From IMG/VR virus record IMGVR_UViG_3300009314_000489, positions 1 through 21,503 of that record: a stretch of DNA of 21,503 nt; one strand, written 5' to 3'. The notes beneath the pieces were generated by a model, which saw nothing but the letters and a program-made list of their open reading frames with translations, was not told the origin of the DNA and made no database searches. Position numbers and translations under genes: made by a program. This stretch comes from a virus. Shown here one piece after another: positions 1,736 to 19,142 of the stretch. Numbering within the stretch: the stretch's first letter is position 1; every line of letters starts with the position of its first letter.

Positions 1736-3216
1736 TGGCAAAAGCCGCCGCCAAAACCCGAGGCGCCCGCCGACGCCGGCCACGGCGCCGGCACATCACC
1801 GCCAGCGACATCGCTGAGCGCCGCACCGCGATCGTCCGGGCCACCTACGATGTGGCGCAGACCACCGACATGAACAAGCGGCACTGGGCCGCCGCCGACG
1901 CGCTCAGCCCCACCGCCGCCGGCAGCAAGTCCGTCCGCACCATCCTCCGCAAGCGGGCCCGATACGAAGTGGCCAATAACAGCTTCGCCCGCGGGCTGGT
2001 CAGCACCCTGGCCGCCGACCTGATCGGCACCGGCCCGCGCCTACGCCTGCAGCTGGAGGACCTCGCGGTCGCCCGCCGCATCGAAACCTATTGGCAGCAG
2101 TGGTGCGACGCCGTCCACCTGGCCGAGAAGCTCCGCACGATGCGGAAGGCCAAGGCCCAGGACGGCGAGGCCTTCGGCGTCCTGGTGACGAACCGCCGCC
2201 TGGACAGCCCGGTCAAACTGGACATGCGCCTCATCGAGGCCGACCGCGTCACCACGCCGTCCACGGGCATGCTGAGCAAGCCCGAGGACAAGGCCATCGA
2301 TGGGATCGTCTTCGACGCCTACGGGAACCCGCAGACCTACCACGTGCTGCAGTCGCACCCGGGCGCCCGCACGATTTCGGCTGACCCGTTCAACGCCTAC
2401 GATCGCATCGCCGCCCACCGCGTCATTCACTGGTTCACCCCCGAACGCCCCGAACAGCATCGCGGCGTCCCGGACCTGACGCCCGCCCTGCCGCTCTTTG
2501 CCCAGCTTCGCCGGCTGACCCTGGCCACGCTGAACGCCGCCGAGGTCGCCGCCGACCTGGCGATCGTGATGCAGACCGAAGCGCCCGTGGGCGGCGAGGC
2601 CGCCGAGGTCGACCCCTGGGTCACAATGGAAATCGAACGCAACACGATCATGTTCGCGCCCGAGGGATGGAAGCCGACGCAGATGAAGGGCGAGCACCCG
2701 TCCGAAAACTTCGCGCCCTTCAGACGGGCCATCATCACCGAAATCGCCCGCTGCATGGATGTGCCCTACAACATCGCCGCCGGCGATTCGAGCGACTACA
2801 ACTTCGCCAGCGGCCGCCTCGACCACCAGACCTATTTTCAGTCCCTACGCGTGCAGCGATCGGAACTGGAGACCGTCGCCCTCAACCGCATCTTCATGGC
2901 CTGGCTGACCGAGGCCGTCCGCGTGGCCGACTACGGGATGTTCGGCCAAATCGAACGCATCTTCTGGCCCCACGGCTGGCTGTGGCCGACCCGCGAGGAA
3001 ATCGACCCGCGATGGCTGCGCGCCCGGGCCGACCTGGTCGGCAAGGGCATCATCACCGAGAGCGACTACCACGCTCGAGCCGGCCATGACTGGCAGGACC
3101 AAATCGACCAACGCCAGCGCGAGGCCCAGGCCCGCGCCGACGCCGGCCTGCCGCAACCGTGGGACAAGGCCGCCCCCGCCCCGGCCGCTGCTGCCGAACC
3201 GGAGACCGACAAATGA
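1735..3216 (+). CDS. Phage portal protein, lambda family
   Basis: A 493-residue protein is close in length to lambda gpB and matches the lambda-type portal family. The portal forms the dodecameric ring at one head vertex through which DNA enters and to which the tail attaches. Recognisable blocks are a basic N-terminus, RARYEVANNSFARGLVSTLA with GTGPRL (about residues 75-105), AKAQDGEAFGVLV (about 139-151), LIEADRV, the RIAAHRVIHWF region, and DVPYNIAAGDSSDYNFAS with the following RLDHQTY (about 341-370), which is characteristic of this family. The C-terminal 40 residues are charged then Ala/Pro-rich, and probably flexible. The start at 1735 overlaps the preceding stop and the end overlaps the next start (ATGA, 3213-3216). 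Confidence 0.93.
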   Translation: MAKAAAKTRGARRRRPRRRHITASDIAERRTAIVRATYDVAQTTDMNKRHWAAADALSPTAAGSKSVRTILRKRARYEVANNSFARGLVSTLAADLIGTGPRLRLQLEDLAVARRIETYWQQWCDAVHLAEKLRTMRKAKAQDGEAFGVLVTNRRLDSPVKLDMRLIEADRVTTPSTGMLSKPEDKAIDGIVFDAYGNPQTYHVLQSHPGARTISADPFNAYDRIAAHRVIHWFTPERPEQHRGVPDLTPALPLFAQLRRLTLATLNAAEVAADLAIVMQTEAPVGGEAAEVDPWVTMEIERNTIMFAPEGWKPTQMKGEHPSENFAPFRRAIITEIARCMDVPYNIAAGDSSDYNFASGRLDHQTYFQSLRVQRSELETVALNRIFMAWLTEAVRVADYGMFGQIERIFWPHGWLWPTREEIDPRWLRARADLVGKGIITESDYHARAGHDWQDQIDQRQREAQARADAGLPQPWDKAAPAPAAAAEPETDK

Positions 3217-5495
3217 ACTTCGCCGAGTGGTGCGAGAAAAACGGCATCGACGTCGACACCTTGAACCCCGTCCAGATGTCCGCCATGCGGGCGATGTGGG
3301 AACGGGCCCACGGGCGACCCCAGGTCGACCCGGAGCGGCTGAACTTCCGCACCGGTGAACTGGACGCCACCGATGACGGCGGTGCGTTCTACTACGCCGA
3401 CGATGGGGAGTGGAAGTATTTCGCCCCGGCCACCATCGCCCTCGAGGCCGACGCCGTGATCGACCTGGAGGCCGCCGACGATGAGGGCAAGCCGAAACTG
3501 CCGACGTTCAAAATGCTCGCCTACACCGGTGGGGCGATGCGGCTGGCCGGCTGGTACTGGCCCGTCGTGATCGAGGTCAGCGGCCTGGCGATCGGCGGAA
3601 AACAGAAGCCCGCCCTGCTGCAGCATGACCCGCGGGCCGTCGTGGGCCACACCACCACGGTGGAGAAATCGAACAACCGCGTCACGGCCGAAGGCCTTGT
3701 CAGCGGTACCGGAGAGGCAGCCGCCGAAGTCGTGGGCGCCGCGAAGAACGGCTTCCCCTGGCGGGTCTCGGTCGGGGCACGTGCGGAACGGATGGAGTTC
3801 GTCGAGTCCGGCAAGGACGCCACCGCCAACGGCAAGACATGGAAAGGCCCGGTGCTGATCGCCCGCAAGGCGACGCTGGGCGAGTTCAGCTTCGTGGCAA
3901 TCGCTGCCGACGACAAGACCCGCGCCCGAGTGGCGGCATCCGCCATCCCCGCGCAACGCGTCGCCAGCCCTGACCAGAGGAGAAAACCGATGACGTTCGA
4001 GCAATGGCTGAAGGCAAAGGGCTTCGACACCGTCGAGACGATGTCGGAGGAAGGCCAGGCCTTCCTGCGTGCCCAGTACGACGCCGAAATCGCGGCCGCC
4101 GATGGCGGCGAGCCGACGCCGGCGCCCACACCCGCCGCCGCACCGAAGTCGCCCGCCGAGCCGGCGGCCACCGAACCCGACGTGCAGGCGATGGTCCAGC
4201 AAGGCATCCGGGCCGAAGGCGAGCGCCGCGACCTGATCGAAGCCACCTGCCGTGGCTTCGAAGGCGAGCGCATCGAGGAACTACGTGCCCAGGCCATCGC
4301 CGGCACCATCACCGTCGATGACCTGCGGGCCAGCGTCCTCGAGCACGTCCGCACCGAACGCGCCCAGGTCACCCCGGGCGGGGCCGACGCGGACAACACC
4401 CGCAAGATGCTCCTGGCCACCGGCTACCTGCAGGCCGCCATGCCCCAGGACAGCATCGTGGCCATCTGCGGCGAGCCCGCCCTCGAGGCCGCCGCCAACC
4501 TGCGTGGCGTGGGCTTCCAGGAGTTCTGCGCGATGGCCGCCGCCATCGACGGCGTGGAACTTCCGCGTTACCAGCAGGACCCGACCGCCTGGCTGCAGGC
4601 CGCATTCAGCACGCTGAGCCTTTCGGGCATCCTCGGCAACGTGGCGAACAAGTCCCTGCTCGCCGGCTTCAACGCCGTCGAGGACAGCTGGCGGGCCATC
4701 GCCGCCACCCGCCCGGTGAAGGACTTCAAGCAGGTCACCAGCTACCGGCTGACCGGCAATATGGAGTTCGACCAGGTCGGGCCGACCGGCGAGCTCAAGC
4801 ACGGCACCGTCGGGTCCGAAAGCTACACCAACCAGGCGGACACCTACGGCCGGATGTACGCCATCACGCGCACCGACATCATCAACGATGACCTCGGCGC
4901 GCTGACGGCCGTGCCGACGAAGATCGGCCGCGGGGCCGCGCTGAAGTTGAACACCGTGTTCTGGACCGCATTCCTGAACAACGGGTCCTTCTTCACCTCC
5001 GGCCGCGGGAACTACATTAGCGGCGCCGCCACGGCCCTGAGCGTCAACGCGCTCACCACGGCCGAGACCGCGTTTTATGACCAGACCGACCCGGACGGCG
5101 ACCCCGTCGCCATCGCGCCGAAGATTCTCCTGGTCCCGAACGCCCTCATCGTGACGGCGACCCAGCTGGCCCAGTCCGTGGAGCTGCGTGACACCACCGC
5201 GTCCACGAAGTACCTGACCAAGAACCCGCACGCCGGCAACTTCACGCCGGTCCGCTCGTCGTACCTGAGCAACAGCGGGATCACCGGGTACAGCACGGCC
5301 GCCTGGTATCTGCTCGCCGCCCCGGGCGACATGCCCGTCATCGAGGTCGTGTTCCTGAACGGCCAGCAGAACCCGGTCGTGGAGCGGGCCGACGCCGACT
5401 TCAACGTCCTGGGCGTGCAGTTCCGGGGCTATTTCGACTTCGGCGTCAGCCTCCAGGAATACCGGGGCGGCCTGAAGAGCAAGGGCAGCGCCTAA
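3213..5495 (+). CDS. Prohead protease / major capsid protein fusion (Mu gpT-like capsid)
   Basis: A 760-residue protein with three parts. Residues about 70-245 look like an HK97-type (S78) prohead protease, with candidate catalytic His138 in LLQHDPRAVVG and Ser186 in WRVSVGA, about 48 residues apart as in that family. Residues about 260-380 are charged, Ala/Pro-rich and helical, like a delta or scaffold domain. The rest is a Mu gpT/HK97-like major capsid domain: TGNMEFDQVGPTGELKHG, then NQADTYGRMYAITRTDIIND. The protease would mature the shell and remove the scaffold. The start at 3213 overlaps the portal stop. A strong internal ribosome binding site and in-frame ATG at 3990 suggest the capsid is also made alone. 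Protease/capsid fusions are known; the double start is read from the sequence. Confidence 0.9.
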   Translation: MNFAEWCEKNGIDVDTLNPVQMSAMRAMWERAHGRPQVDPERLNFRTGELDATDDGGAFYYADDGEWKYFAPATIALEADAVIDLEAADDEGKPKLPTFKMLAYTGGAMRLAGWYWPVVIEVSGLAIGGKQKPALLQHDPRAVVGHTTTVEKSNNRVTAEGLVSGTGEAAAEVVGAAKNGFPWRVSVGARAERMEFVESGKDATANGKTWKGPVLIARKATLGEFSFVAIAADDKTRARVAASAIPAQRVASPDQRRKPMTFEQWLKAKGFDTVETMSEEGQAFLRAQYDAEIAAADGGEPTPAPTPAAAPKSPAEPAATEPDVQAMVQQGIRAEGERRDLIEATCRGFEGERIEELRAQAIAGTITVDDLRASVLEHVRTERAQVTPGGADADNTRKMLLATGYLQAAMPQDSIVAICGEPALEAAANLRGVGFQEFCAMAAAIDGVELPRYQQDPTAWLQAAFSTLSLSGILGNVANKSLLAGFNAVEDSWRAIAATRPVKDFKQVTSYRLTGNMEFDQVGPTGELKHGTVGSESYTNQADTYGRMYAITRTDIINDDLGALTAVPTKIGRGAALKLNTVFWTAFLNNGSFFTSGRGNYISGAATALSVNALTTAETAFYDQTDPDGDPVAIAPKILLVPNALIVTATQLAQSVELRDTTASTKYLTKNPHAGNFTPVRSSYLSNSGITGYSTAAWYLLAAPGDMPVIEVVFLNGQQNPVVERADADFNVLGVQFRGYFDFGVSLQEYRGGLKSKGSA
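3976..3983 (+). promoter_or_regulatory. Strong internal ribosome binding site
   Basis: AGAGGAGA lies inside the protease/capsid coding sequence, six bases before an in-frame ATG at 3990. Its strength and spacing, at the protease/scaffold boundary, argue against chance. Confidence 0.7.
3990..5495 (+). CDS. Major capsid protein from internal in-frame start (nested in fusion)
   Basis: This is the same frame as the fusion gene, entered at ATG 3990, giving 501 residues. AGAGGAGA at 3976-3983 is one of the best Shine-Dalgarno matches in the window and stands six bases before the ATG. In the fusion this point is exactly the end of the protease domain. The product would carry a roughly 120-residue helical N-terminal delta/scaffold segment plus the Mu gpT-like capsid domain. 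Its first residues (MTFEQWLKAKGFD) resemble the fusion's own N-terminus (MNFAEWCEKNGID). A nested capsid start gives many capsid copies per protease copy, similar in logic to lambda C/Nu3, where the scaffold starts inside the protease gene. Expression from this site is inferred. Confidence 0.7.
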   Translation: MTFEQWLKAKGFDTVETMSEEGQAFLRAQYDAEIAAADGGEPTPAPTPAAAPKSPAEPAATEPDVQAMVQQGIRAEGERRDLIEATCRGFEGERIEELRAQAIAGTITVDDLRASVLEHVRTERAQVTPGGADADNTRKMLLATGYLQAAMPQDSIVAICGEPALEAAANLRGVGFQEFCAMAAAIDGVELPRYQQDPTAWLQAAFSTLSLSGILGNVANKSLLAGFNAVEDSWRAIAATRPVKDFKQVTSYRLTGNMEFDQVGPTGELKHGTVGSESYTNQADTYGRMYAITRTDIINDDLGALTAVPTKIGRGAALKLNTVFWTAFLNNGSFFTSGRGNYISGAATALSVNALTTAETAFYDQTDPDGDPVAIAPKILLVPNALIVTATQLAQSVELRDTTASTKYLTKNPHAGNFTPVRSSYLSNSGITGYSTAAWYLLAAPGDMPVIEVVFLNGQQNPVVERADADFNVLGVQFRGYFDFGVSLQEYRGGLKSKGSA

Positions 5496-5735
5496 GCCGG
5501 CGCCGCCTGACCGGCCCGCTGCAGCAGACAACCCCGCCGCCGGCACCGCGCCGCCGGCGGCACCGGCGCGCAGAGACTGGTGGAAACTCGTCTGGAAACC
5601 ACAGAGGAGCGCAAACCCTCCTCCGTTAGCAGCATAGGCCAACAAGAATCGCTTACTGCGAACGTGAGCGGAAACATCTGACGCGCAACCATAGTCCGCG
5701 ACCGGCACGGCGGCCGCCCGAACTGGAGACCCGCA
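5496..5735 (+). other. AT-richer intergenic spacer between capsid and decoration genes
   Basis: There is no convincing gene in 240 bases. The first part is extremely GC-rich with a strong hairpin (5536-5561). The middle part, 5581-5700, contains 66 G or C of 120 (55 percent), visibly lower than the flanking genes, and its possible codons (ACT, GTT, ATA, TCG, CTT) do not look like neighbouring gene usage. A second hairpin (5604-5609 with 5618-5623) hides an AGAGGAG sequence. The end carries the decoration gene's TGGAG ribosome binding site. It could be a leader RNA, a promoter region or an inserted fragment. No clear -35/-10 pair was recognised. Confidence 0.5.
5536..5561 (+). terminator. GC hairpin after capsid gene, possible terminator or mRNA stabiliser
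   Basis: GCCGCCGGC (5536-5544) pairs perfectly with GCCGGCGGC (5553-5561), a 9-bp stem with an 8-nt loop, 40 bases after the capsid stop. No T-run follows, so a 3' stabilising or processing hairpin is as likely as a terminator. Confidence 0.35.
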
Positions 5736-6071
5736 ATGAGCAATGTGAACTTCCGCCACGATGGCATCTCGGTCGACTACACCCCCGCAGCGGCGGTGAC
5801 GGCCGGCGACGTCGTGGTCCAGAACGAACTGGTGGGCGTGGCGAAGAAGGACATCGCCGCCAACGCCCTCGGCGCCCTGGCCGTCTCGGGCGTCTTCGAC
5901 TTCCCCAAGGGCACGACAAGCGGCAGCGCCATCGCCGCCGGCAAAAACGTGTACTGGGACGATACGAACGACGTCGCCACCGAGACCGCCGGCAGCAACA
6001 AGCTGATCGGCAAGACGGTCGCCGCCGCGACGGACACCGACACCACGGTCCGCGTCCGAATGAACCAGTAG
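5736..6071 (+). CDS. Capsid decoration protein, DUF2190 family
   Basis: A 111-residue protein with a TGGAG ribosome binding site shortly before its ATG. It looks like the DUF2190 family of small beta-rich proteins that often follow the capsid gene and are thought to decorate or stabilise the shell. Visible support is the order of short beta segments with Ala/Gly/Thr content: VTAGDVVVQNELVGVAKKDI, then GALAVSGVFDFPK, then AAGKNVYWDD and a final LIGKTVAAA-VRVRM block. Length and position match. It would sit on the outside of the capsid, which makes it one possible acceptor for the sugar-modification enzymes encoded next, although that link is speculative. Confidence 0.8.
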   Translation: MSNVNFRHDGISVDYTPAAAVTAGDVVVQNELVGVAKKDIAANALGALAVSGVFDFPKGTTSGSAIAAGKNVYWDDTNDVATETAGSNKLIGKTVAAATDTDTTVRVRMNQ

Positions 6072-6078
6072 GCGCCGC

Positions 6079-6666
6079 ATGGCCAGGCCGGGAAAACGCG
6101 CAGCGGTGCTGTGCCCCGGGCCGTCCCTGGCCAGCGCCCTGCCAGAACTGCGGGCCGGCCGCCTGGGAGACTTCGATCACGTGATCGCGGTAAACCGGGC
6201 GGCCGCCGCCTGGCCGGCCGACTTCTGGTCCATCTGGGACCCGGAGAGTTTCGGCGACGTCCAGCCGCTCGGCCGACCGGCCATCATCATGGCCCGGCAG
6301 CACTGGCAGACGCTGCTGGCCGAACGGCCCGAAGCCGGCCGGCACCATTCGGTCATGCGGGATGACCTCGCACACCCGCCCCGCAACACCGGCTGGGACT
6401 CCTGGTCCGCCACCGTGGCCGTGGTCGCCGCATGGAACCTCGGCGCCACCGACATCCGCGTCCTCGGGTGCGACCTCGAGGGCACGGCCGACTGGGATGG
6501 CGCCCGCCTGGACCGACACAAGCGCGAGCCCGAACGTTGGGCCCGCGAAGCCGACGCCTGGACGCTGCTGATCAACTGGCTGCGGATCGAGGGCGTCGAC
6601 GTCATACGCGAACGCATCACGGGCGGCACCGCCGTCCGCCAACGCCTCACCGGAGACAGGGCATGA
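6079..6666 (+). CDS. DUF115 / GT29-like nucleotide-sugar related protein
   Basis: A 195-residue protein starts 7 bases after the decoration stop with only a weak ribosome binding site. It shows the Rossmann-like layout of DUF115/sialyltransferase-like proteins: AVLCPGPSLA (residues 9-18), DHVIAVNRA (33-41), ADFWSIWDPESF (47-58), then GWDSWSATVAVVAAWNLGA (105-123) and DIRVLGCDLEG (125-135). The GPSL, VNRA and LGCD motifs are characteristic. Members act on sugars or pterin-like substrates, and several phages carry such genes near structural genes. Substrate and reaction cannot be read here. It overlaps the methyltransferase start (ATGA), so the two are likely co-translated. A degenerate pseudoenzyme cannot be excluded. 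Confidence 0.65.
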   Translation: MARPGKRAAVLCPGPSLASALPELRAGRLGDFDHVIAVNRAAAAWPADFWSIWDPESFGDVQPLGRPAIIMARQHWQTLLAERPEAGRHHSVMRDDLAHPPRNTGWDSWSATVAVVAAWNLGATDIRVLGCDLEGTADWDGARLDRHKREPERWAREADAWTLLINWLRIEGVDVIRERITGGTAVRQRLTGDRA

Positions 6667-7238
6667 ACCCGCGGGCACGATACGATCACATCGCACACCT
6701 GGTGCGGCAGACCGCCGGCGTCCCCGGCGATTTCGCCGAACTGGGCGTCTGGTACGGTCACACCTTCGTGCCCCTGGCCCTGGCCGCCCGCTTCTCCGGC
6801 CGCGTCGCCCACGCCGTCGACAGCTTCGAAGGCATGCCCGACCCCACCGACCGCGACCTCGAGCCCGACGGCAAGTGCCTCTTCCCCGCCGGCGGCCTCG
6901 ACGCCGGCGGCACCGGGCCCGTCCAGGCGGCCGTCGAACCGATCGCCGGCTGGGTGCGGATTTGGCAGGGCTGGATTCCCGACGTGTTCGAGGGCATCCA
7001 CCTCGAGGACGGCCTGGCCTTCGTTCACGTGGATCTCGACCACTACGCCCCGACCCGGGCCGCCCTGCCCTGGGCCTGGGAGCATCTGAACCCGGGCGGC
7101 ATCATCGCCGTCCACGACTACGTCCCCGGCGCCGACAACCTGGCCACGGCGGCCATCGCCGAATTCATCGAGCAAGGCTACGCGCCCGCCGGCTTCCAGG
7201 AGGCCAGCGGCCATGTATGGTTTCGGAGGTATGGATGA
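6663..7238 (+). CDS. TylF/MycF-type sugar O-methyltransferase
   Basis: A 191-residue protein whose ATG overlaps the preceding stop. It matches the macrocin O-methyltransferase (TylF) family, SAM- and metal-dependent enzymes that methylate sugar hydroxyls. Motif I is FAELGVWYGHT (residues 24-34, E-x-G-x-x-x-G). HAVDSFEGMPDP (50-61) supplies the acidic residue for SAM. FVHVDLDHYAPT (120-131) and GGIIAVHDY (145-153) carry the Asp residues that bind metal in TylF/MycF-like enzymes. It is slightly shorter than typical members, which usually carry extra N-terminal sequence. It is coupled by overlap to the glycosyltransferase downstream, so the likely substrate is the same glycan. Family assignment is strong; the acceptor is unknown. 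Confidence 0.85.
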   Translation: MNPRARYDHIAHLVRQTAGVPGDFAELGVWYGHTFVPLALAARFSGRVAHAVDSFEGMPDPTDRDLEPDGKCLFPAGGLDAGGTGPVQAAVEPIAGWVRIWQGWIPDVFEGIHLEDGLAFVHVDLDHYAPTRAALPWAWEHLNPGGIIAVHDYVPGADNLATAAIAEFIEQGYAPAGFQEASGHVWFRRYG

Positions 7239-8881
7239 TCCCGAAGCTGATACATTTCGTCTGGATCGGCCCGCCCATGCCCGACTGGGCCCGCCGCAAC
7301 ATCGAAGAGTTCCGCCGGCTCAACCCCGACCACGACATCCGCGTCCACGGCCGCGAAGTACTCCACCCGGATTATGCCCCGATGTATGACCGCTGCGAGG
7401 GCATCCGCGTCGTGCAGGCCGACCTGCTGCGGTACAGCGCCATCGAACGCTTCGGCGGCTGGTATTTCGACGTCGACTATTGGCCCTTCCGCCCGGTCGC
7501 CGACATCGAGTCCGCCTACGGCCTGGACGGCAAACGCCTGGTGGTCACCGAACAGCACGGCCAGAAGAATCGCCTGCTCCACATCGCCAACGGCTGCCTG
7601 GCCAGCGAGGCCGGCCAGCCCGCCTGGGCCTTCATCCGCAACTGGGTCGCCGGCAGCACGGTCCGCGCCGGCAAAAACGCCTTCGGCCCCGCCTTGATGA
7701 CCAAGCTGATCGCCAAGCGAGGCGATCTCTTCCAGGTCCTCCGCTGGCCGTTCTTCTACCCCGCCGCCGGCGGCGACGCCGTGCACCGGTTCAAACGCCT
7801 GGCCGCCGGCGAGGACCCCCGCAGCGTCCTCTGGGACCTGATCCACCAGACCCTCGGGCAATTGCCCTTCGTGATGCACATGTGGATGAACGGCCGCGCC
7901 GAACTGCCGGCGTATGACCCGGCCGCCGACGGCATCGACGCCGACCGCGACAAGGCGCCGCCGCCCTTCGACGGCATGCGCGTGGGCCTGGTCGCCACGC
8001 GCCAGCAATGGCTCGACGAGCAGCAATGCTTCCAACACCTGAGCGCCGGCCTCGAACGCCTGGGCTGCAACGTCCAGGTCGCCGAGCCGGGCGATTGGCC
8101 CTGCTTCATCGACCCGCAGCTGGTCCTGATGTGGAACGGCCGCAAGGCCCTCTACATGGAGACCGCCGCCGGCGCCCGAGCCGCCGGCGTCCCCATGCTG
8201 GTGATGGAGCACGGGTTCTTTGATCGCCGCGCCTATAGCCAGATCGACCACCAGGGCATCCTCCACTGGGCCAGCTGGACTAATCAGCTGCATCGCCCGG
8301 CACCGGCCGAAGGCGCAGCCCGCCTGCAGGCCGTCTGGCCCCGACCCCTGGAACCGGTACGGGCCCGCCAGAACGGCAACGTCCTGGTCCTCGGCCAGGT
8401 GCCCGGCGACAGCCAGATGGACGAATCGCCCATGCGCGACCCCGACGATCTGATCAAGGCGGTCGCCAAGGCCATCCCCGCAGGCCTGCAGCCGGTTTTC
8501 AGGCCGCACCCGCGCCGAGCGAAGCACACCGCCGTCCCCCGGGAAATGCCGGCCAGCGGCGCCCGCAACCTGGCCGACGCCGTCGCCCAGGCCCGCTTCG
8601 CCATCACCATCAACAGCAACGCCGGCAACGAATGCCTGGCCATGGGCCTGCCGGTGCTGGCCTACGGGCCGGCCCTCTACCTGCGCGCCGGCGTGGCCCG
8701 CCAGGCACAGCCGGAGACCCTGCGCGATGACATCCAGGCGATGGCCGCCGGCTGGGCGCCCGACCCGGGCCGCGTAACGAACTACCTCCACTGGCTGGCC
8801 GCTCGCCAGTGGAACGTCCACGAAATGGCCAGCGGGCACGTGCTGGCCCGGCTGATCCAGAAGGCGGTGACAGCGGCATGA
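7235..8881 (+). CDS. Two-domain glycosyltransferase: GT32-type N-terminus fused to KpsC-like C-terminus
   Basis: A 548-residue protein with CGGAGGT just before its ATG, which overlaps the methyltransferase stop. Residues 1-230 are a GT32-type glycosyltransferase: IPKLIHFVWIG (2-12), ADLLRY (62-67), GGWYFDVDYWPF (74-85) with the DxD metal/nucleotide-sugar motif at 79-81, and a closing HMWMNG (215-220). From about residue 245 a second domain resembles capsule polysaccharide synthesis KpsC/LipB-like proteins: VLGQVPGDSQ (about 384-393), FRPHPR (about 421-426), and ITINSNAGNECLAMGLPVLAYG split over about 457-478. GT32 enzymes transfer hexoses; KpsC-type enzymes transfer Kdo onto lipid. The fusion suggests two successive sugar additions. 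Whether the acceptor is a virion protein or host surface glycan cannot be read. Confidence 0.8.
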   Translation: MIPKLIHFVWIGPPMPDWARRNIEEFRRLNPDHDIRVHGREVLHPDYAPMYDRCEGIRVVQADLLRYSAIERFGGWYFDVDYWPFRPVADIESAYGLDGKRLVVTEQHGQKNRLLHIANGCLASEAGQPAWAFIRNWVAGSTVRAGKNAFGPALMTKLIAKRGDLFQVLRWPFFYPAAGGDAVHRFKRLAAGEDPRSVLWDLIHQTLGQLPFVMHMWMNGRAELPAYDPAADGIDADRDKAPPPFDGMRVGLVATRQQWLDEQQCFQHLSAGLERLGCNVQVAEPGDWPCFIDPQLVLMWNGRKALYMETAAGARAAGVPMLVMEHGFFDRRAYSQIDHQGILHWASWTNQLHRPAPAEGAARLQAVWPRPLEPVRARQNGNVLVLGQVPGDSQMDESPMRDPDDLIKAVAKAIPAGLQPVFRPHPRRAKHTAVPREMPASGARNLADAVAQARFAITINSNAGNECLAMGLPVLAYGPALYLRAGVARQAQPETLRDDIQAMAAGWAPDPGRVTNYLHWLAARQWNVHEMASGHVLARLIQKAVTAA

Positions 8882-9267
8882 CAGCCGACCTGCTACAAAC
8901 CGGCAGCGACTGGCTGCAGACGCAGCGCAAGGCCGAACTCAGCCACGCGGTGACCTACGCCCGCGGGGCGAATTCGGTCTCCGTCAACGCCACGGTGGGA
9001 TCTACCACCTTCGACGTGGTCACCGACCACGCCGTCGAACAGGTCGAGACCCGCGACTTCCTCATCACCCGGGCCGACCTGGTGATCGCCGCCATCGGCG
9101 CCGATCCCATCGAACCTGCCCGAGGCGACAAGATCACCGAGACCGTCGGCAGCGAGACCCTGACTTATGAGGTCATGGCGCCCAACACCGACGAGCCGCC
9201 CTACAGGTATTCCGACCGGTACCGGAAAACGTACCGCGTGCATACGAAGCTGGTGACAGAAGCATGA
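8878..9267 (+). CDS. Head-tail joining protein
   Basis: A 129-residue protein starts in an ATGA overlap with the glycosyltransferase stop. It resembles a recurrent phage head-tail joining/connector protein: LLQTGSDWLQTQRKAELSHAVTY split over residues 5-27, then VSVNATVGSTTFDV, a central ESRDFLI-like block (VETRDFLITRADLVI, about 56-70), ARGDKITETVG, TYEVMAP and RYSDRYRKTYRVHTK at the end. The alternation of short beta strands fits a small barrel used as head closure or stopper below the portal. It probably followed the decoration gene directly in an ancestral arrangement, with the sugar cassette inserted between. Function is inferred from family memory and position. Confidence 0.65.
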   Translation: MTADLLQTGSDWLQTQRKAELSHAVTYARGANSVSVNATVGSTTFDVVTDHAVEQVETRDFLITRADLVIAAIGADPIEPARGDKITETVGSETLTYEVMAPNTDEPPYRYSDRYRKTYRVHTKLVTEA

Positions 9268-9936: not shown

Positions 9937-10347
9937 ATGGCCGACACCTTGAAAGCACTCATGGGAGCCGACGTCTCCGTCGACCCGACCACCGGGCGCG
10001 CCCGCCTCGACATTTCCATCGAGGCCCTGGCCGACCTGATCAGCGGCGGCCGGCTGGCGACCGTCGACGGCGCCGGCATCGACGCCGACAGCCACTTCAA
10101 CAAACAAGTGGCCCTGACCGGGGCCCAGCAGGAAATCGACCTGGAAGGGACGCGGCACGTGGTCCACGCCTGGCTCGACGATGACGCGGCGCCGACGAAG
10201 ATGTCCCTCAACGAAGCGCCCACCGCGACCATGACCGAACGCTCGCCGAGCAAGCCGCTGATCCGCGTGCTTGATTCCGACGGGGCGACGAAGCTTTACG
10301 TCCTGGCCTCTGCCGCCAGCGGCAACATCAACGTGGAGGCCTGGTGA
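9937..10347 (+). CDS. Unrecognised phage structural protein
   Basis: A 136-residue protein with CTGGAG about 7 bases before its ATG. I do not recognise a family. The N-terminus has an amphipathic helix (SIEALADLISGGRL, residues 27-40). The middle and end are beta-rich, with QEIDLEGTRHVVHAWLDDDA, SEAPTATMTE-like stretches and a final TKLYVLASAASGNINVEAW. The beta-rich second half would suit a small virion surface or baseplate accessory domain. It is separated by one base from the following larger gene, with which it probably works. Both lie between the neck genes and the tail tube, a place where accessory virion genes can insert. Confidence 0.5.
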   Translation: MADTLKALMGADVSVDPTTGRARLDISIEALADLISGGRLATVDGAGIDADSHFNKQVALTGAQQEIDLEGTRHVVHAWLDDDAAPTKMSLNEAPTATMTERSPSKPLIRVLDSDGATKLYVLASAASGNINVEAW

Positions 10348-10348
10348 C

Positions 10349-11779
10349 ATGGCGGCTGGCAAGGTCTACGCCGAGTGGTACAAGCACTTCATCAACGCCG
10401 GCGGCGCCCACTTCGTCTGGCAGGACACCGGCGTGGGTGACTGGCTTCGCTGGCGGATGTGCACGGCCAAGCAGTTCAACGACAGCCACGACAACACCTA
10501 CTTCGCCCTGGCCGGCTGCCTGCGGGGCAAGTGCTACGCCGGCAGCCAGGTCCACTGGGATGATGACGACGCGGCCAACGGGTTCACGTCCTCGGCCGGC
10601 GACGTGATGTGCGCCGACTACATCTCCACCAACGCCATCGCCCACTACCGCGACTACAACGTGCCCGGCACCATGACCCCCGACGGCTCGACCATCAAGG
10701 CCCGGGCGTGGTTCCGGGGCACCAGCGGCCGCGGCGAGCTGGCCCTGCAGGCCCTCGACAGCGGCGACACCGTGCTGGCCACCGTCACGGCCGACACCGG
10801 GGCGGTGACCGACATCGACCCCACGGACTGGCTGGACCTGCCCGCGACCACGGCCAAGGTCCGGGTGAAGAAAAACGCCGACAACGCCGAGTACATCCAG
10901 CTGGTGGGGATCGACTTCATCAACACGGGCAGCACCACCACCCCCGACACGGCCGGCAGCATGCTGTACGACGGGACCGACGGGGAGGCCGAGGAGGTGC
11001 TGATCGGCAGCGGCTGGGGGTCCGACTACGTCTCCACCAGCTTCGAGATGGCCCTGTACTGGGCGGCCGACGGCGGCAGCTTCAGCGCCAACAACGCCAT
11101 CGGCGGGCTGAGCCACCGCGGGATCGACACGGCCACGTTCACCTGGCAGAGCCAGGACGGCAGCGGCGCGCTGACGAACATCCTCGAAACCAACAGCGAC
11201 CCGGCCGGCACGAAGACCGGCGCGGTCGACTACGTCGTGATGACCATCTCCACGGCCAAGGCGTACCTCGAGAGCGCCTGCTCGACGGAGAAGGGCACGC
11301 TGGCCGGGAAGCTGATCTTCGGCGGCGACGGCGTGCAGGTGAAGCACACCGTCACGACCTCGGCCAATATGGATGGGTTCGGTTTCTATAACGTCCTATG
11401 CGGGATGCCGCTGGACCTCAAAGTCGTTCAGTTCTATGGCGACGACGGCCCGACCTACATCGCCGGCGGTTCGAAGGTCAGCGCCATCAAAAGCTCCGGG
11501 ATGCGGTGCTGGGGCGCCAGCAACCGCGTCGTCTATGACATCTACGTTCCCAACGTCAGCGATGACATGAACTACATGATTGACGCCGGCGCGGCTTACT
11601 ACCCGCAGGTCGCCTATAACGCCGGCGGCGGTACCTGCAAGGCGTATATGTATCGATACTATGACACGGCCGCAAAGCAGGACGACATCGACAGCGGCCA
11701 GAGCCGCTCAACCAACTTCGTAATCCGCCTGGCGGACCGCAGCCTGGCGCTGCCGCAGGCGGCAAGCGTGGCCGTCTGA
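10349..11779 (+). CDS. Unrecognised large beta-rich virion protein (possible adhesin)
   Basis: A 476-residue protein with GTGGAGG about 9 bases before the ATG at 10349. No family is recognised. The sequence is rich in Gly, Asp, Thr, Ser, Trp and Tyr, with alternating strand patterns. A region around residues 95-195 (TIKARAWFRGTSGRGELALQ, then ATTAKVRVKKN and YIQLVGIDFIN) looks like a carbohydrate-binding-module-type beta sandwich. Residues about 210-330 form another beta domain. Residues about 340-476 have more Tyr and Met and noticeably more T- and A-ending codons than the rest, suggesting a different origin. A sugar- or receptor-binding role is inference from composition. A strong terminator-like hairpin follows, so it may end a transcription unit. 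Confidence 0.5.
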   Translation: MAAGKVYAEWYKHFINAGGAHFVWQDTGVGDWLRWRMCTAKQFNDSHDNTYFALAGCLRGKCYAGSQVHWDDDDAANGFTSSAGDVMCADYISTNAIAHYRDYNVPGTMTPDGSTIKARAWFRGTSGRGELALQALDSGDTVLATVTADTGAVTDIDPTDWLDLPATTAKVRVKKNADNAEYIQLVGIDFINTGSTTTPDTAGSMLYDGTDGEAEEVLIGSGWGSDYVSTSFEMALYWAADGGSFSANNAIGGLSHRGIDTATFTWQSQDGSGALTNILETNSDPAGTKTGAVDYVVMTISTAKAYLESACSTEKGTLAGKLIFGGDGVQVKHTVTTSANMDGFGFYNVLCGMPLDLKVVQFYGDDGPTYIAGGSKVSAIKSSGMRCWGASNRVVYDIYVPNVSDDMNYMIDAGAAYYPQVAYNAGGGTCKAYMYRYYDTAAKQDDIDSGQSRSTNFVIRLADRSLALPQAASVAV

Positions 11780-15724: not shown

Positions 15725-18256
15725 GTGGTCGCCCCATCCGCCGTCAGAGCCGGCAAGGCATACGTCGAACTCGGCACCCTCGACAAAACCGCCGTGGGCC
15801 TGAAGCGGGCCCAGCGCCGCCTCCGCGCCTTCGGCCGATCGGTCAGCGCCGCCGGCGCCGGCCTGATGAAGATGGCCGCCCTGACGGCCGTCCCGCTGGC
15901 CATCGGCGCCAAGGCCTTCATGGACTTCGAACGCCAGATGGCCCAGGTCTCGACGATGCTCGATGACCCCCAGCGGCACATGAAGGATTTCAAAGCCGGC
16001 ATCCGCCGCATGGCCGTCGAGTTCGGCGAGTCGACCGACGCCCTGGCCGGCGGCTTGTATGACATCCTGTCCGCCACCATCGAACCGGCCAAGGCCCTTG
16101 ACGTGCTCGCCGCCTCGGTGAAGGCCGCCAAGGCCGGCCTCACCGACACCGCGACCGCCACCGACGCCATCGTCACGATCCTGAACAGTTACAACCTCAG
16201 CGCCGACAAGGCGGCCGACGTGAGCGACTGGCTGTTCGCCGTGGTCAAGAAGGGCAGGACTGACTTCGCAAAACTGGCCCCGACGATCGGCATGGTCGCC
16301 AGCACCGCCTCGGTGGCCGGCGTCAGCCTCGAGGAACTCGGGGCGATGATCGCCGTGCTGACCCGCAACGGCGTCCAGACCGACAACGCCATCACCGCCA
16401 TCAACCGGACGATCGCCACGTTCCTGAAGCCGACCGATGACGCCGCCGCCTACGCCCGCCGGCTGGGCTTCGAACTGTCCAGCGCCACGCTGAAGGCCGA
16501 AGGCATCGAGGGCGTCTTCAGGCGGATCGCCAACCTGCCGCCCGACGCCGTCGCCCGGCTATTCCCGAACATCCGGGCCCTGCGTGGCGTGCTGCCGGCC
16601 CTCAAGAAAATGGACGAGTTCAGCGGCGACGTCCAACTCATGGCAGACCGCGCCGGCAAGACCGAGGAGGCCTACCGGAAGATGGCGAACACGCTGTCCC
16701 ACCAGTGGCAAAAAATGAAGCAAGCCGCCGTGATCGCCTTCGGCCACATCGGCGAGGCGATGCGGGAACACCTGGCCGCCGCCGCCGAAAAAATCACGGA
16801 CTGGGGCAAGGCCGTCGCGCTATTCATCAAACGCAACAAGGCCATGATCGCCACCGTGGCCAAGTGGACCGTCATCGTGGCCGCCATCGGCGCCGGCCTG
16901 CTGATCGCCGGCAAACTGATCGCCGTCTTCAGCGCCCTGATTGGCGTGATCAAGGGCGTGGCCGTGGCCGTTGGCGTTCTGAAGATGGCCTTCACCGCGC
17001 TGCTGGCCAACCCGGTCGCCCTGGCCATCACCGCCATCGTCGTGGCCGTGCTGGCGCTGGCCGTGGCCTTCAAGAAGGCGCTCGATTGGATTTACAGAAC
17101 CAGCGACGCGATGCAGAACCTGGTCGACGCCGGCGAGAAACAGCGGGCCATCGACCGCCAGCGGATGCAGCGCCTGCAGCAGCTGGCCGCCAAGGAAAAA
17201 CTCAGCAACGCCGAACGCCGCGAGGCCCTGGACCTGACGAAGAAACTGAACAAGGAATATGGCGACCTCGGCATCCGCATGACGGAGACCACCGGCCAGC
17301 TGGTCGGGATGGCCGAGGCCCAAAAGAAACTGAACGCCGCGATGCGCGCCAACCAGGTCATGGAACTGGAGAACGCGCTCGAGGAAATCGACGCCAACAT
17401 CAAGAAACTGAAACGTAAACGGCGCATGGCCTACGGGGCCGGCATCGGCGCCGGCTACCTGTACAACAAGTGGGAGGACACCAGCGGCAAGATCGAAATG
17501 CAGGTCCGCAACGCCGAACGCATGCGCAAGCGGCTGGCCGACATCCGCAGCGGCGCCGGCACCGACAAGCCCGCCGCCCTCAGCGCCCGCATCGCCAAGG
17601 GCAAAACGGACGCCGCCGCCGCCAAGGCCGAAGCGATCGCCACCGTCAAGGAACTCGCCGACCTGGACCGCCGCATCCACCGGCTGAAGCTGCAGCAAAT
17701 CGATGACGAACGCCAACGCGAACTGGCCCTGATGCATAACCGGTATGACGATGAAATCGCCCGGGCCAAACAGAACCACCAAATCATCAACAAGCTGAAC
17801 CTGGCCCGGTTCGCCGAAGAGGCAAACATCCGAAAGAAGCACGCCGCCCGGTACGCCCAAGAGCAGAAACGCCGGGCCGAACAACGCGCCACCGAAGAGG
17901 CCGACCTGCAGCACCAAATCGCCCAGCTGCAAATCCAGGCCACGCGCAAGGGCCGTGATCGGGAACTGGGCCTCATCGAACTCGAGGAGCAACGCGCCCT
18001 GGCCCGGGCCAAGGAACTGGGCCTGGACGAAGCCCTGGTCCGCCGCGTCTTTGCCCTACGCCGCCAGCTGGTCAGCGGCCGCGCCGCGGCGGCCACCGAA
18101 ATGGCCAGCATCGGCAGCTTCAGCGCCGGCGGCCTGCGTGGCGTCTTCGGCGGCCAGAACCTCGCCGAACGCGCCGCGAAGGCCGCCGAGGCCACGGCCA
18201 CCAACACCCGCAAGCTGGTGCGGAAGGCCGACCAGGGCAAGGTCACATTCGCCTGA
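15725..18256 (+). CDS. Tail tape measure protein (TP901-type)
   Basis: An 843-residue protein starts with GTG at 15725, three bases after the previous stop, with GGAGG 7 bases upstream. Residues about 55-290 match the conserved TP901-1-type tape measure domain: MDFERQMAQVSTML, ESTDALAGGLYDILSA, ALDVLAASVKAAKAGLTD, ATDAIVTILNSYNLSADKA and APTIGMVASTASVAGVSLEE. Two or three strongly hydrophobic segments lie at about 379-456, as usual for proteins that enter the host membrane during DNA delivery. The remaining part, about 460-775, is charged coiled coil. The protein sets tail length; with the common rule of about 0.15 nm per residue it predicts a tail of roughly 125 nm. Confidence 0.92.
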   Translation: MVAPSAVRAGKAYVELGTLDKTAVGLKRAQRRLRAFGRSVSAAGAGLMKMAALTAVPLAIGAKAFMDFERQMAQVSTMLDDPQRHMKDFKAGIRRMAVEFGESTDALAGGLYDILSATIEPAKALDVLAASVKAAKAGLTDTATATDAIVTILNSYNLSADKAADVSDWLFAVVKKGRTDFAKLAPTIGMVASTASVAGVSLEELGAMIAVLTRNGVQTDNAITAINRTIATFLKPTDDAAAYARRLGFELSSATLKAEGIEGVFRRIANLPPDAVARLFPNIRALRGVLPALKKMDEFSGDVQLMADRAGKTEEAYRKMANTLSHQWQKMKQAAVIAFGHIGEAMREHLAAAAEKITDWGKAVALFIKRNKAMIATVAKWTVIVAAIGAGLLIAGKLIAVFSALIGVIKGVAVAVGVLKMAFTALLANPVALAITAIVVAVLALAVAFKKALDWIYRTSDAMQNLVDAGEKQRAIDRQRMQRLQQLAAKEKLSNAERREALDLTKKLNKEYGDLGIRMTETTGQLVGMAEAQKKLNAAMRANQVMELENALEEIDANIKKLKRKRRMAYGAGIGAGYLYNKWEDTSGKIEMQVRNAERMRKRLADIRSGAGTDKPAALSARIAKGKTDAAAAKAEAIATVKELADLDRRIHRLKLQQIDDERQRELALMHNRYDDEIARAKQNHQIINKLNLARFAEEANIRKKHAARYAQEQKRRAEQRATEEADLQHQIAQLQIQATRKGRDRELGLIELEEQRALARAKELGLDEALVRRVFALRRQLVSGRAAAATEMASIGSFSAGGLRGVFGGQNLAERAAKAAEATATNTRKLVRKADQGKVTFA

Positions 18257-18266
18257 GGAGAACACC

Positions 18267-19142
18267 GTGCCCGGAGCGACACTGACAGAACTGATCGACA
18301 GCCGCGAACAGCGGATGGAGCGCGACGAGACCGGAGAACTCCGGCTCGAGGAACTGACCCTGCATTACGTCCTGCAAGGCACGAGCAGCGAATCCACCGC
18401 CCGCACCCTCCTGGAGAACAGCACCGCCACCACCTATGACTCCCTGGTCCGCGACCAAATCCGCCTCGAGCCCATCGAGGTCGACACCGTCAACACCACC
18501 GGCCGGTGGGACGTCGAGGTCGACTACGTCATGCCCGAGGCCCAGGAGGCCGAGACCGGCGAGTCCCGCTTCAGCTTCGACACCGGCGGCGGCACCAAGC
18601 ACATCACGCAGAGCCTCGGCACCGTGGCGTCCTACGGGATCGCCGGCGACAACCCGCCCGACTTCAAGGGCGCCATCAACGTGCGAGGCCGCGCCGGCGA
18701 CATGACGGTCGAGGGCGTCGACATCGTCGTGCCCCAGTACAGCTTCAGCGAGACCCACTGGATCGGCGACGGCGCCGTCACGCCGACATATAAGGGCCGC
18801 CTCTTCGCCCTGACCGGCACCACCAATAACGCCCCCTTCAAGGGCTGCGCCATCGGCGAATGCCTCTTCCTCAACGCCGCCGGCAGCAAGCGGGGCGATG
18901 CCGACTGGGAGATTACCTTCAACTTCACCGCCAGCCCGAACAGCGATGACATCCGCACCCCCGAACTGATCGCGCTGAACTTCAACACGGCCATCCCGAA
19001 AAAGGGCTGGGAGTATTTCTGGGTCCGGTACCGGGAGACCGATGACACCACCGCCAAGGCCATCGTCAAGCGGCCCATTGGCGTTTACATCGAGAAGGTC
19101 TACGAAGCCGACAACTTCGCCATGATCGGCATCGGCACCTGA
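18267..19142 (+). CDS. Tail-tip / baseplate protein of unrecognised family
   Basis: A 291-residue protein from GTG 18267, with GAGGAG at 18255-18260, shortly after the tape measure stop. The N-terminus is helical and acidic (LTELIDSREQRMERDETGEL). The rest is beta-rich: TTGRWDVEVDYVMPE, SRFSFDTGGGTKHITQSLG, FKGAINVRGR, VEGVDIVVPQYSFSETHWIG, then KGWEYFWVRYRET. The position immediately after the tape measure is where the distal tail protein or baseplate hub usually lies. I think it is a conserved, uncharacterised tail protein, but no known fold is clear from the sequence. No enzymatic motif is seen. Confidence 0.55.
   Translation: MPGATLTELIDSREQRMERDETGELRLEELTLHYVLQGTSSESTARTLLENSTATTYDSLVRDQIRLEPIEVDTVNTTGRWDVEVDYVMPEAQEAETGESRFSFDTGGGTKHITQSLGTVASYGIAGDNPPDFKGAINVRGRAGDMTVEGVDIVVPQYSFSETHWIGDGAVTPTYKGRLFALTGTTNNAPFKGCAIGECLFLNAAGSKRGDADWEITFNFTASPNSDDIRTPELIALNFNTAIPKKGWEYFWVRYRETDDTTAKAIVKRPIGVYIEKVYEADNFAMIGIGT

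Follow-up and report, generated by a model that had tools for sequence, protein, structure and literature searches.

Virion glycosylation is known in the mycobacteriophages Che8 and Rita (Freeman et al., 2023, cited by PMC11256854 and PMC12619734), and in mycobacteriophages the phage-encoded glycosyltransferases (GTs) are linked to glycans of capsid (and tail tube) proteins. The GT genes of Maravista, a relative of Che8 and Rita, lie near the 3' end of the genome (PMC11256854), and the mycobacteriophage glycans are described at protein C-termini (PMC12619734). In the chlorovirus PBCV-1, the multi-domain GT A064R has a predicted methyltransferase domain and is linked with the glycan that the major capsid protein Vp54 carries (PMC5408694). 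The locus described here is a cassette of three genes, A, B and C, in the virus record IMGVR_UViG_3300009314_000489 of IMG/VR; the window is the whole of this 21,503-base record (68% G+C). As in the mycobacteriophages, a GT is phage-encoded, but this two-domain enzyme (gene C) lies in the head operon, unlike the GT genes of Maravista, and the candidate acceptor is an internal serine (Ser62) of the head decoration protein instead of a C-terminus. PBCV-1 likewise encodes a multi-domain GT and differs in being an algal virus with early expressed GT genes and other GT domains (PMC5408694).

The cassette is best read, with a probability of roughly 0.7, as a late, phage-encoded virion glycosylation module, for which Ser62 would be the likeliest acceptor wherever the decoration protein is present. 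This reading is drawn from the place of the cassette in the head operon, its overlap with the joining gene, the two catalytic signatures that are intact in C, the variable sugar genes around C and the co-variation of Ser62 with C. Glycosylation of phage virions is already known; the architecture of the cassette and the acceptor candidate are new, and no account of this architecture was found in a full-text literature search, most subscription papers lying outside its scope.

Genes in the window follow the order terminase end, portal (PF05136), protease-capsid fusion, decoration, A-B-C, joining and tail genes. The features, with expectation (E) values of the profile matches, are:

6079..6666, + strand: gene A, weakly DUF115/MptE-like, possible glycosyltransferase (PF01973, E 0.022, below cut-off)
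6663..7238, + strand: gene B, TylF-type O-methyltransferase (PF05711, 5.3e-14)
7235..8881, + strand: gene C, two-domain glycosyltransferase and cassette anchor (Pfam, Foldseek, VIA, motif conservation)
7235..7909, + strand: N-terminal GT-A domain of C (GT32/TcdA-like), DXD D79/D81; domain end approximate
7979..8878, + strand: C-terminal KpsC/WbbB-like GT-B domain of C, Q388xxxD392 motif
5736..6071, + strand: head decoration (cement) protein, candidate glycan acceptor (Phage_cement_2 PF09956, 7e-28; PHROG 122 head decoration)
5919..5921, + strand: decoration Ser62 codon, candidate acceptor residue (Ser co-varies with C across phages)
8878..9267, + strand: head-tail joining protein, ATGA overlap with C (Phage_H_T_join_3 PF25138, 4.5e-36)
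3159..5495, + strand: protease-major capsid fusion protein (PF25209, 6.6e-41; PHROG 4523, 2.9e-82)

An earlier note on this DNA had described a three-gene glycan-modification unit at 6079-8881, joined by ATGA overlaps, inserted into a conserved series of head genes and translated with the virion genes. The open reading frame coordinates confirm ATGA overlaps at the A/B and B/C junctions, and a third one at the C/joining junction agrees with co-translation with a virion gene. Gene A starts 7 nt after the end of the decoration gene. The decoration protein has a homologue in PDB, the minor capsid protein gp48 (9gay, E 1.4e-6). The window has a near-twin, the 43 kb contig L001, whose encoded proteins are 99.8-100% identical where compared.

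Gene C carries a Pfam match to PF05159 Capsule_synth at residues 382-497 (5e-7), and near its N-terminus weak matches to TcdA_TcdB (PF12919, 5e-5; 23.2 bits against a cut-off of 23.6) and Gly_transf_sug (PF04488, 0.0011; 20.1 bits against a cut-off of 23). Its AlphaFold model was made from an 8-sequence alignment (mean predicted local distance difference test score, pLDDT, 77.8; predicted template modelling score, pTM, 0.54). Residues 1-175 of the model resemble large-toxin/SetA-type GT-A transferases (best VIA Z 18.8, root mean square deviation, rmsd, 2.0 over 161 residues, with YGT 6rth), and residues 249-536 match KpsC and WbbB (VIA Z about 16, rmsd 3.5-3.9, about 250 residues), for example 6mgd (VIA Z 16.5, rmsd 3.7, 250 residues) and KpsC 8fux (Foldseek E 4.4e-9). 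In a sequence-profile search with the second domain alone, KpsC is found only at E 0.5-0.9. The GT-A core with its DXD motif has TcdA, SetA, PaToxG and YeGT as closest solved relatives. GT-A enzymes of this GT32/large-toxin type are known to modify protein hydroxyls. Compared with the large toxins, the GT-A domain of C is minimal (about 225 residues), has no toxin parts and is fused to the KpsC-like domain.

KpsC and WbbB are retaining beta-Kdo (3-deoxy-D-manno-oct-2-ulosonic acid) transferases of GT107 and GT99, which have a GT-B fold and a QXXXD motif (PMC10148158). The second domain of C shares these features and differs in being phage-borne and fused to a GT-A domain, with 12-20% identity in structural alignments. 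In KpsC-type enzymes the Asp of the invariant QXXXD is the nucleophile, Glu66 the general base and His94 the general acid (PMC10148158). Residues D79, D81, E325, H344, Q388, D392 and H425 of C are invariant in all 27 proteins of the set made non-redundant by removing 7 C proteins that were near-identical to others and 3 near-twin contig copies. The stretch around E325 aligns with the KpsC E-D-G-F motif (a sequence match below significance), and E325 and H344 are probably the counterparts of Glu66 and His94. Judged from these residues, both domains of C look catalytically competent. A fusion of this sort would represent a new type of retaining glycosyltransferase. Of the names given in the earlier note, KpsC-like is upheld by the structure match and the QXXXD motif, and TylF by the PF05711 match of gene B. 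GT32 is better replaced by a GT-A domain of GT32/large-toxin type, and DUF115 for gene A comes down to the weak PF01973 match.

Homologue searches with C return full-length relatives that are mostly 31-47% identical. The tabulated loci number 44, or 41 without the near-copies L266, L036 and L272; L032 and the loci with the GT-A or KpsC-like part only were left out. A decoration gene lies upstream of C in 36 of them, a joining gene downstream in 34, and both in 28 (27 non-redundant). C stands between the two genes in all 28 of these, and the reverse order of the flanking genes occurs in none of the 44. Among the other 16, nine are cut or at a contig edge (L012, L024, L252, L257, L266, L282, L285, L036, L037), four show no joining-profile match after C (L027, L030, L034, L255) and three belong to other heads (L020, L026, L267). 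A candidate start codon of the joining gene falls within a 4-nt overlap with the C stop in 21 of the 34 loci. At L002, a second, GT-A-only copy of C (10001-10690) is found immediately upstream of the full-length gene.

The other heads extend this neighbourhood beyond one capsid type. In L020 and its near-copy L021, a Gp13-like capsid protein gene (PF20036, 3.9e-35) is followed directly by C and then TylF; in L026, a GP7-type capsid protein gene (PF20911, 2.3e-13) by TylF, a methyltransferase-like gene, C and the joining gene. In L274 a Gp13-like capsid protein gene (3.9e-51) is followed by an unnamed open reading frame, a weakly DUF115-like gene and, without the GT-A part, the KpsC-like half of C; in L273 the capsid and KpsC-like genes are arranged likewise (by eye). 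L276, in which no capsid gene was identified, contains the KpsC-like half as well. The PF25209 capsid gene of L267 is unfused, and TylF, methyltransferase-like genes and C lie farther downstream of it. Capsid genes of three families are thus followed by C or by its KpsC-like half, so the question that the earlier note had left to relatives, whether the cassette would turn up in unrelated positions, is answered in favour of a place near capsid genes.

Among isolated phages, C has no match in 50,697 phage records (tblastn, E 1e-5). When one genome from each of 84,980 species was scanned by pattern, the only full-length match was L047 (JAQUQK010000147.1), a 4.9 kb head-operon fragment with C in a metagenome-assembled genome (MAG) named Thermoplasmatota. 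A matching capsid gene is on another contig of this MAG, and the assignment of the fragment to it may be a case of mis-binning.

Two scans of IMG/VR describe the site itself. The first used a capsid profile, and the best 80 of at least 580 relatives were kept; 65 of these had both a decoration and a joining gene resolved. The two genes lie at most 143 nt apart in 57 of the 65, C is present in one, and the other seven large gaps (355-1942 nt) lack C. The second scan used decoration residues 1-54 only as query, so that Ser62 could not bias the sample, and gives a gap of at most 150 nt in 51 of 70 resolved loci (best 80 of 527). An empty decoration-joining site is the common state in the loci sampled, which makes A-B-C in the window an insertion, as the earlier note had proposed; the isolates F10 and PBb001 likewise have no cassette in this slot. 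Matches to cassette families occur in none of the 64 resolved C-negative loci of the capsid scan and in 3 of all its 79 C-negative loci, each of the three without a joining gene in view.

The earlier note's idea of a three-gene unit does not survive comparison: C is the anchor of the cassette, and A and B are interchangeable. Among the 27 non-redundant cassettes, TylF is found in 10 (only as a short piece in L013 and L024) and gene A in one, that of the window itself. A small GT2-like gene is present in 9 and an unnamed methyltransferase-like family in 8. A GT2-methyltransferase-like fusion, two Methyltransf_24-type families, pyruvyl-transferase-like and sulfotransferase-like genes occur in 3 each. 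Pfam identifies an epimerase (L002, 1.1e-26), a YdjC deacetylase (L022, 5.6e-32), a radical SAM/SPASM protein (L005), a nitroreductase (L006) and RXYLT1_C-type genes (L034, L186) in other cassettes. The 'sulfotransferase-like' and 'MTP methyltransferase-like' families were named by eye, with no Pfam match in the members scanned (L005 and L006; L002). Gene B is a clear TylF member (52.5 bits against a PF05711 cut-off of 23). Gene A reaches 15 bits against the PF01973 cut-off of 34.6 and falls outside the DUF115/MptE-like family as so defined. Its AlphaFold model, from two sequences, is poor (pLDDT 55), and with it Foldseek finds nothing at E 0.001 or better, CST-I/II being among weak matches at E above 0.1. 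Besides the near-twin contig, relatives of gene A occur only in the cut contigs L069 and L150, in the same slot. The weakly DUF115-like gene of L274 was considered as a relative and rejected, as it does not align with A. This gene (L274:5833-6489; PF01973 E 0.0077, weak as for gene A) and L276:5727-6224, which has no Pfam match and a radical SAM/SPASM gene nearby, are possible GT genes near KpsC-like genes.

The composition and place of the cassettes bear on two other uses of the enzymes. Phage glycosyltransferases are also reported to modify DNA (PMC12619734), yet DNA hypermodification is very improbable here: among the 44 loci C is found only in head operons, and its neighbours include TylF, pyruvyl-transferase-like, deacetylase and epimerase genes. 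Alternatively, the target of the cassette late in infection might be the host surface, so as to mask receptors, exclude superinfection or aid release, with the head operon supplying only late expression. The families KpsC, TylF and polysaccharide pyruvyl transferase take their names from pathways for surface polysaccharides or antibiotics, and integrase genes in 3 of 9 records searched (G001, G002, G005) make some carriers look temperate. Such a role is nevertheless unlikely: inspection of cassettes by eye, with no transmembrane prediction run, turned up no export gene; in heads of three capsid families C or its half remains close to the capsid genes; and the tracking of the cassette by Ser62 would be left unexplained.

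A virion protein, for example the adjacent decoration protein, had been suggested in the earlier note as a target of the glycan, and the behaviour of Ser62 supports this. The residue was first picked up in a Ser/Thr comparison of decoration proteins from C-positive and C-negative phages. A wider screen comprised 20,727 residue tests on four head proteins (decoration, capsid, joining and portal); p was calculated for frequency differences above 0.4. Ser62 has the lowest p of all, being Ser in 22/22 C-positive against 4/51 aligned C-negative proteins; its loop usually reads K-x-T-G/T-S-x-S/T-A. The decoration-keyed scan added one new C phage, L186, with Ser62, giving 23/23 aligned C-positive against 7/84 aligned C-negative proteins (non-redundant). 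These counts start from 24 C-positive (1 gap) and 103 C-negative proteins, 7 of the latter from the phage collection. They leave aside L032 and L036 (copies) and L037 (cut C), all three with Ser. Among cut-off contigs Ser62 occurs in 4 of 16, three of which (L069, L134, L231) carry cassette-family genes after the decoration gene. A last scan for C yielded 27 further loci; in 11 of these a decoration protein lies beside C or its GT-A domain, and Ser62 is present in 11/11 of these fresh proteins (10 non-redundant). L271 and L272 of this set are near-copies, the contig end truncates C in L282 and L285, the L255 protein is partial and L290 has the GT-A domain only.

Several observations weigh against Ser62, or against the glycosylation module more generally. 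Seven C-negative decoration proteins carry Ser62, and the C-positive protein of L007 has a gap at this position. The PF09956 decoration protein was not found in the C-bearing L020/L021, L026, L267 and L273-L276, so that Ser62 cannot be the sole acceptor; L290, as said, has half of the enzyme. Residues of the major capsid protein also differ between the C sets (e.g. 18/19 against 7/63), which means that part of the Ser62 signal is relatedness. A single clade of C-positive decoration proteins is not rejected (approximately unbiased, AU, test, p 0.64; that tree scored better), and Ser62 may therefore be a lineage mark linked to the cassette. Well-supported branches alone leave one independent pair on the decoration tree and three on the capsid tree, too few for significance. 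As to vertical co-inheritance of C with the capsid gene, C identity shows no correlation with that of the major capsid protein (Mantel r 0.10, 357/2000 permutations as high); the capsid-decoration value is likewise low, 0.05, so these are weak tests.

Other results, from the trees, speak for the module. On the decoration tree built without the Ser62 columns, 7-8 of 10 independent pairs agree in direction and none is opposed, and Ser62 tops 155 column-residue tests, with Ser64 next. The capsid tree, built quickly from 26 rows with C and 64 resolved rows without it and having several long branches, requires at least 6 changes in C presence and rejects a single clade of C carriers (AU p 0.00012). 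It offers 3-4 pairs in total, none opposite, which is too few for a test. L008 and L009 are mosaic, with C 72% and joining protein 70% identical, against 31% for capsid, 27% for portal and 47% for decoration protein.

Two explanations of the co-variation stand side by side: either Ser62 has been selected as the acceptor, or the decoration gene and the cassette are inherited as one block. On the second, decoration gene, cassette and joining gene would travel together, Ser62 would be a hitchhiking lineage mark, and the true acceptor would be the major capsid or another head protein. This is quite possible, with the odds somewhat against it, and it overlaps with the proposed module, as it still amounts to capsid glycosylation, at another site. 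The AU result for one decoration clade and the C-bearing heads without a PF09956 match are in its favour, as is the correlation of C identity with that of the joining protein (r 0.49, 0/2000 permutations as high) and of the decoration protein (14/2000). It accounts less well for a residue that is invariant while the rest of the decoration protein varies, the next marker, E79, reaching only 16/23, and for the 12 changes that C needs on the best decoration tree, though few branches there are well supported.

Under the preferred reading of a virion glycosylation module, the cassette would be expressed late with the head genes, as its position suggests, the C/joining overlap would couple translation, and C would act on a capsid surface protein. 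The GT-A domain would place a first sugar on a capsid surface residue, most likely decoration Ser62 where present, and the KpsC-like domain would add a second one, possibly Kdo or another CMP-linked acidic sugar, by retaining double displacement with D392 as nucleophile. The chain may then be tailored by accessory enzymes, TylF and perhaps gene A in the window phage, and GT2, methyltransferase, epimerase, deacetylase or pyruvyl-transferase-like enzymes in other phages. The product would presumably be a short methylated sugar chain, and the outcome an exchangeable capsid 'serotype', which would shield the particle or determine its adhesion. A fuller proposal is a portable capsid-serotype system, in which the fused GT-A/KpsC-like enzyme glycosylates a dedicated Ser62, interchangeable tailoring enzymes give a phage-specific capsid sugar, the module passes from one head to another, unrelated one, inserting again next to the capsid genes, and the decoration protein as acceptor evolves together with the enzyme as writer; its chances as a whole fall just short of even.

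Virion glycosylation found in print concerns mycobacteriophages, and the cassette suggests that many uncultivated phages have a modular form of it. Since the enzyme, its catalytic residues and a single candidate acceptor serine can all be named, the proposal is testable by expressing two proteins. A variable capsid glycan, if true, would be relevant to the way in which phages escape recognition and adhere to surfaces.

Some minor observations concern the slot and its surroundings. In L219 (2980-4236), L111 (2440-3627) and L139 (7353-8480) the slot holds a single gene for a predicted secreted trypsin-like peptidase (by eye), with a signal-like start and GSG/NAHV/GxSGS-type motifs (also by eye). 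Gaps of about 1330 nt occur in nine resolved loci of the decoration-keyed scan, including L219, and together with the peptidase genes they indicate that the slot accepts other cargo too. In the C-negative phage L162 the decoration-joining gap contains a repeat-rich, fibre-like gene of 710 residues (5260-7392, by eye). The decoration protein of L007 (3391-4515) has a Gly/Thr/Ala-rich extension of about 260 residues, C being the only cassette gene seen there. L153 (the 43 kb contig of L001) has at 17641-19011 a gene that looks radical-SAM-like by eye and may include a B12-binding part, and a tyrosine integrase gene is on the same contig. In L080, where C is not in view, a methyltransferase-like gene (7029-7472) separates the capsid gene from the decoration gene and may mark a second insertion point.

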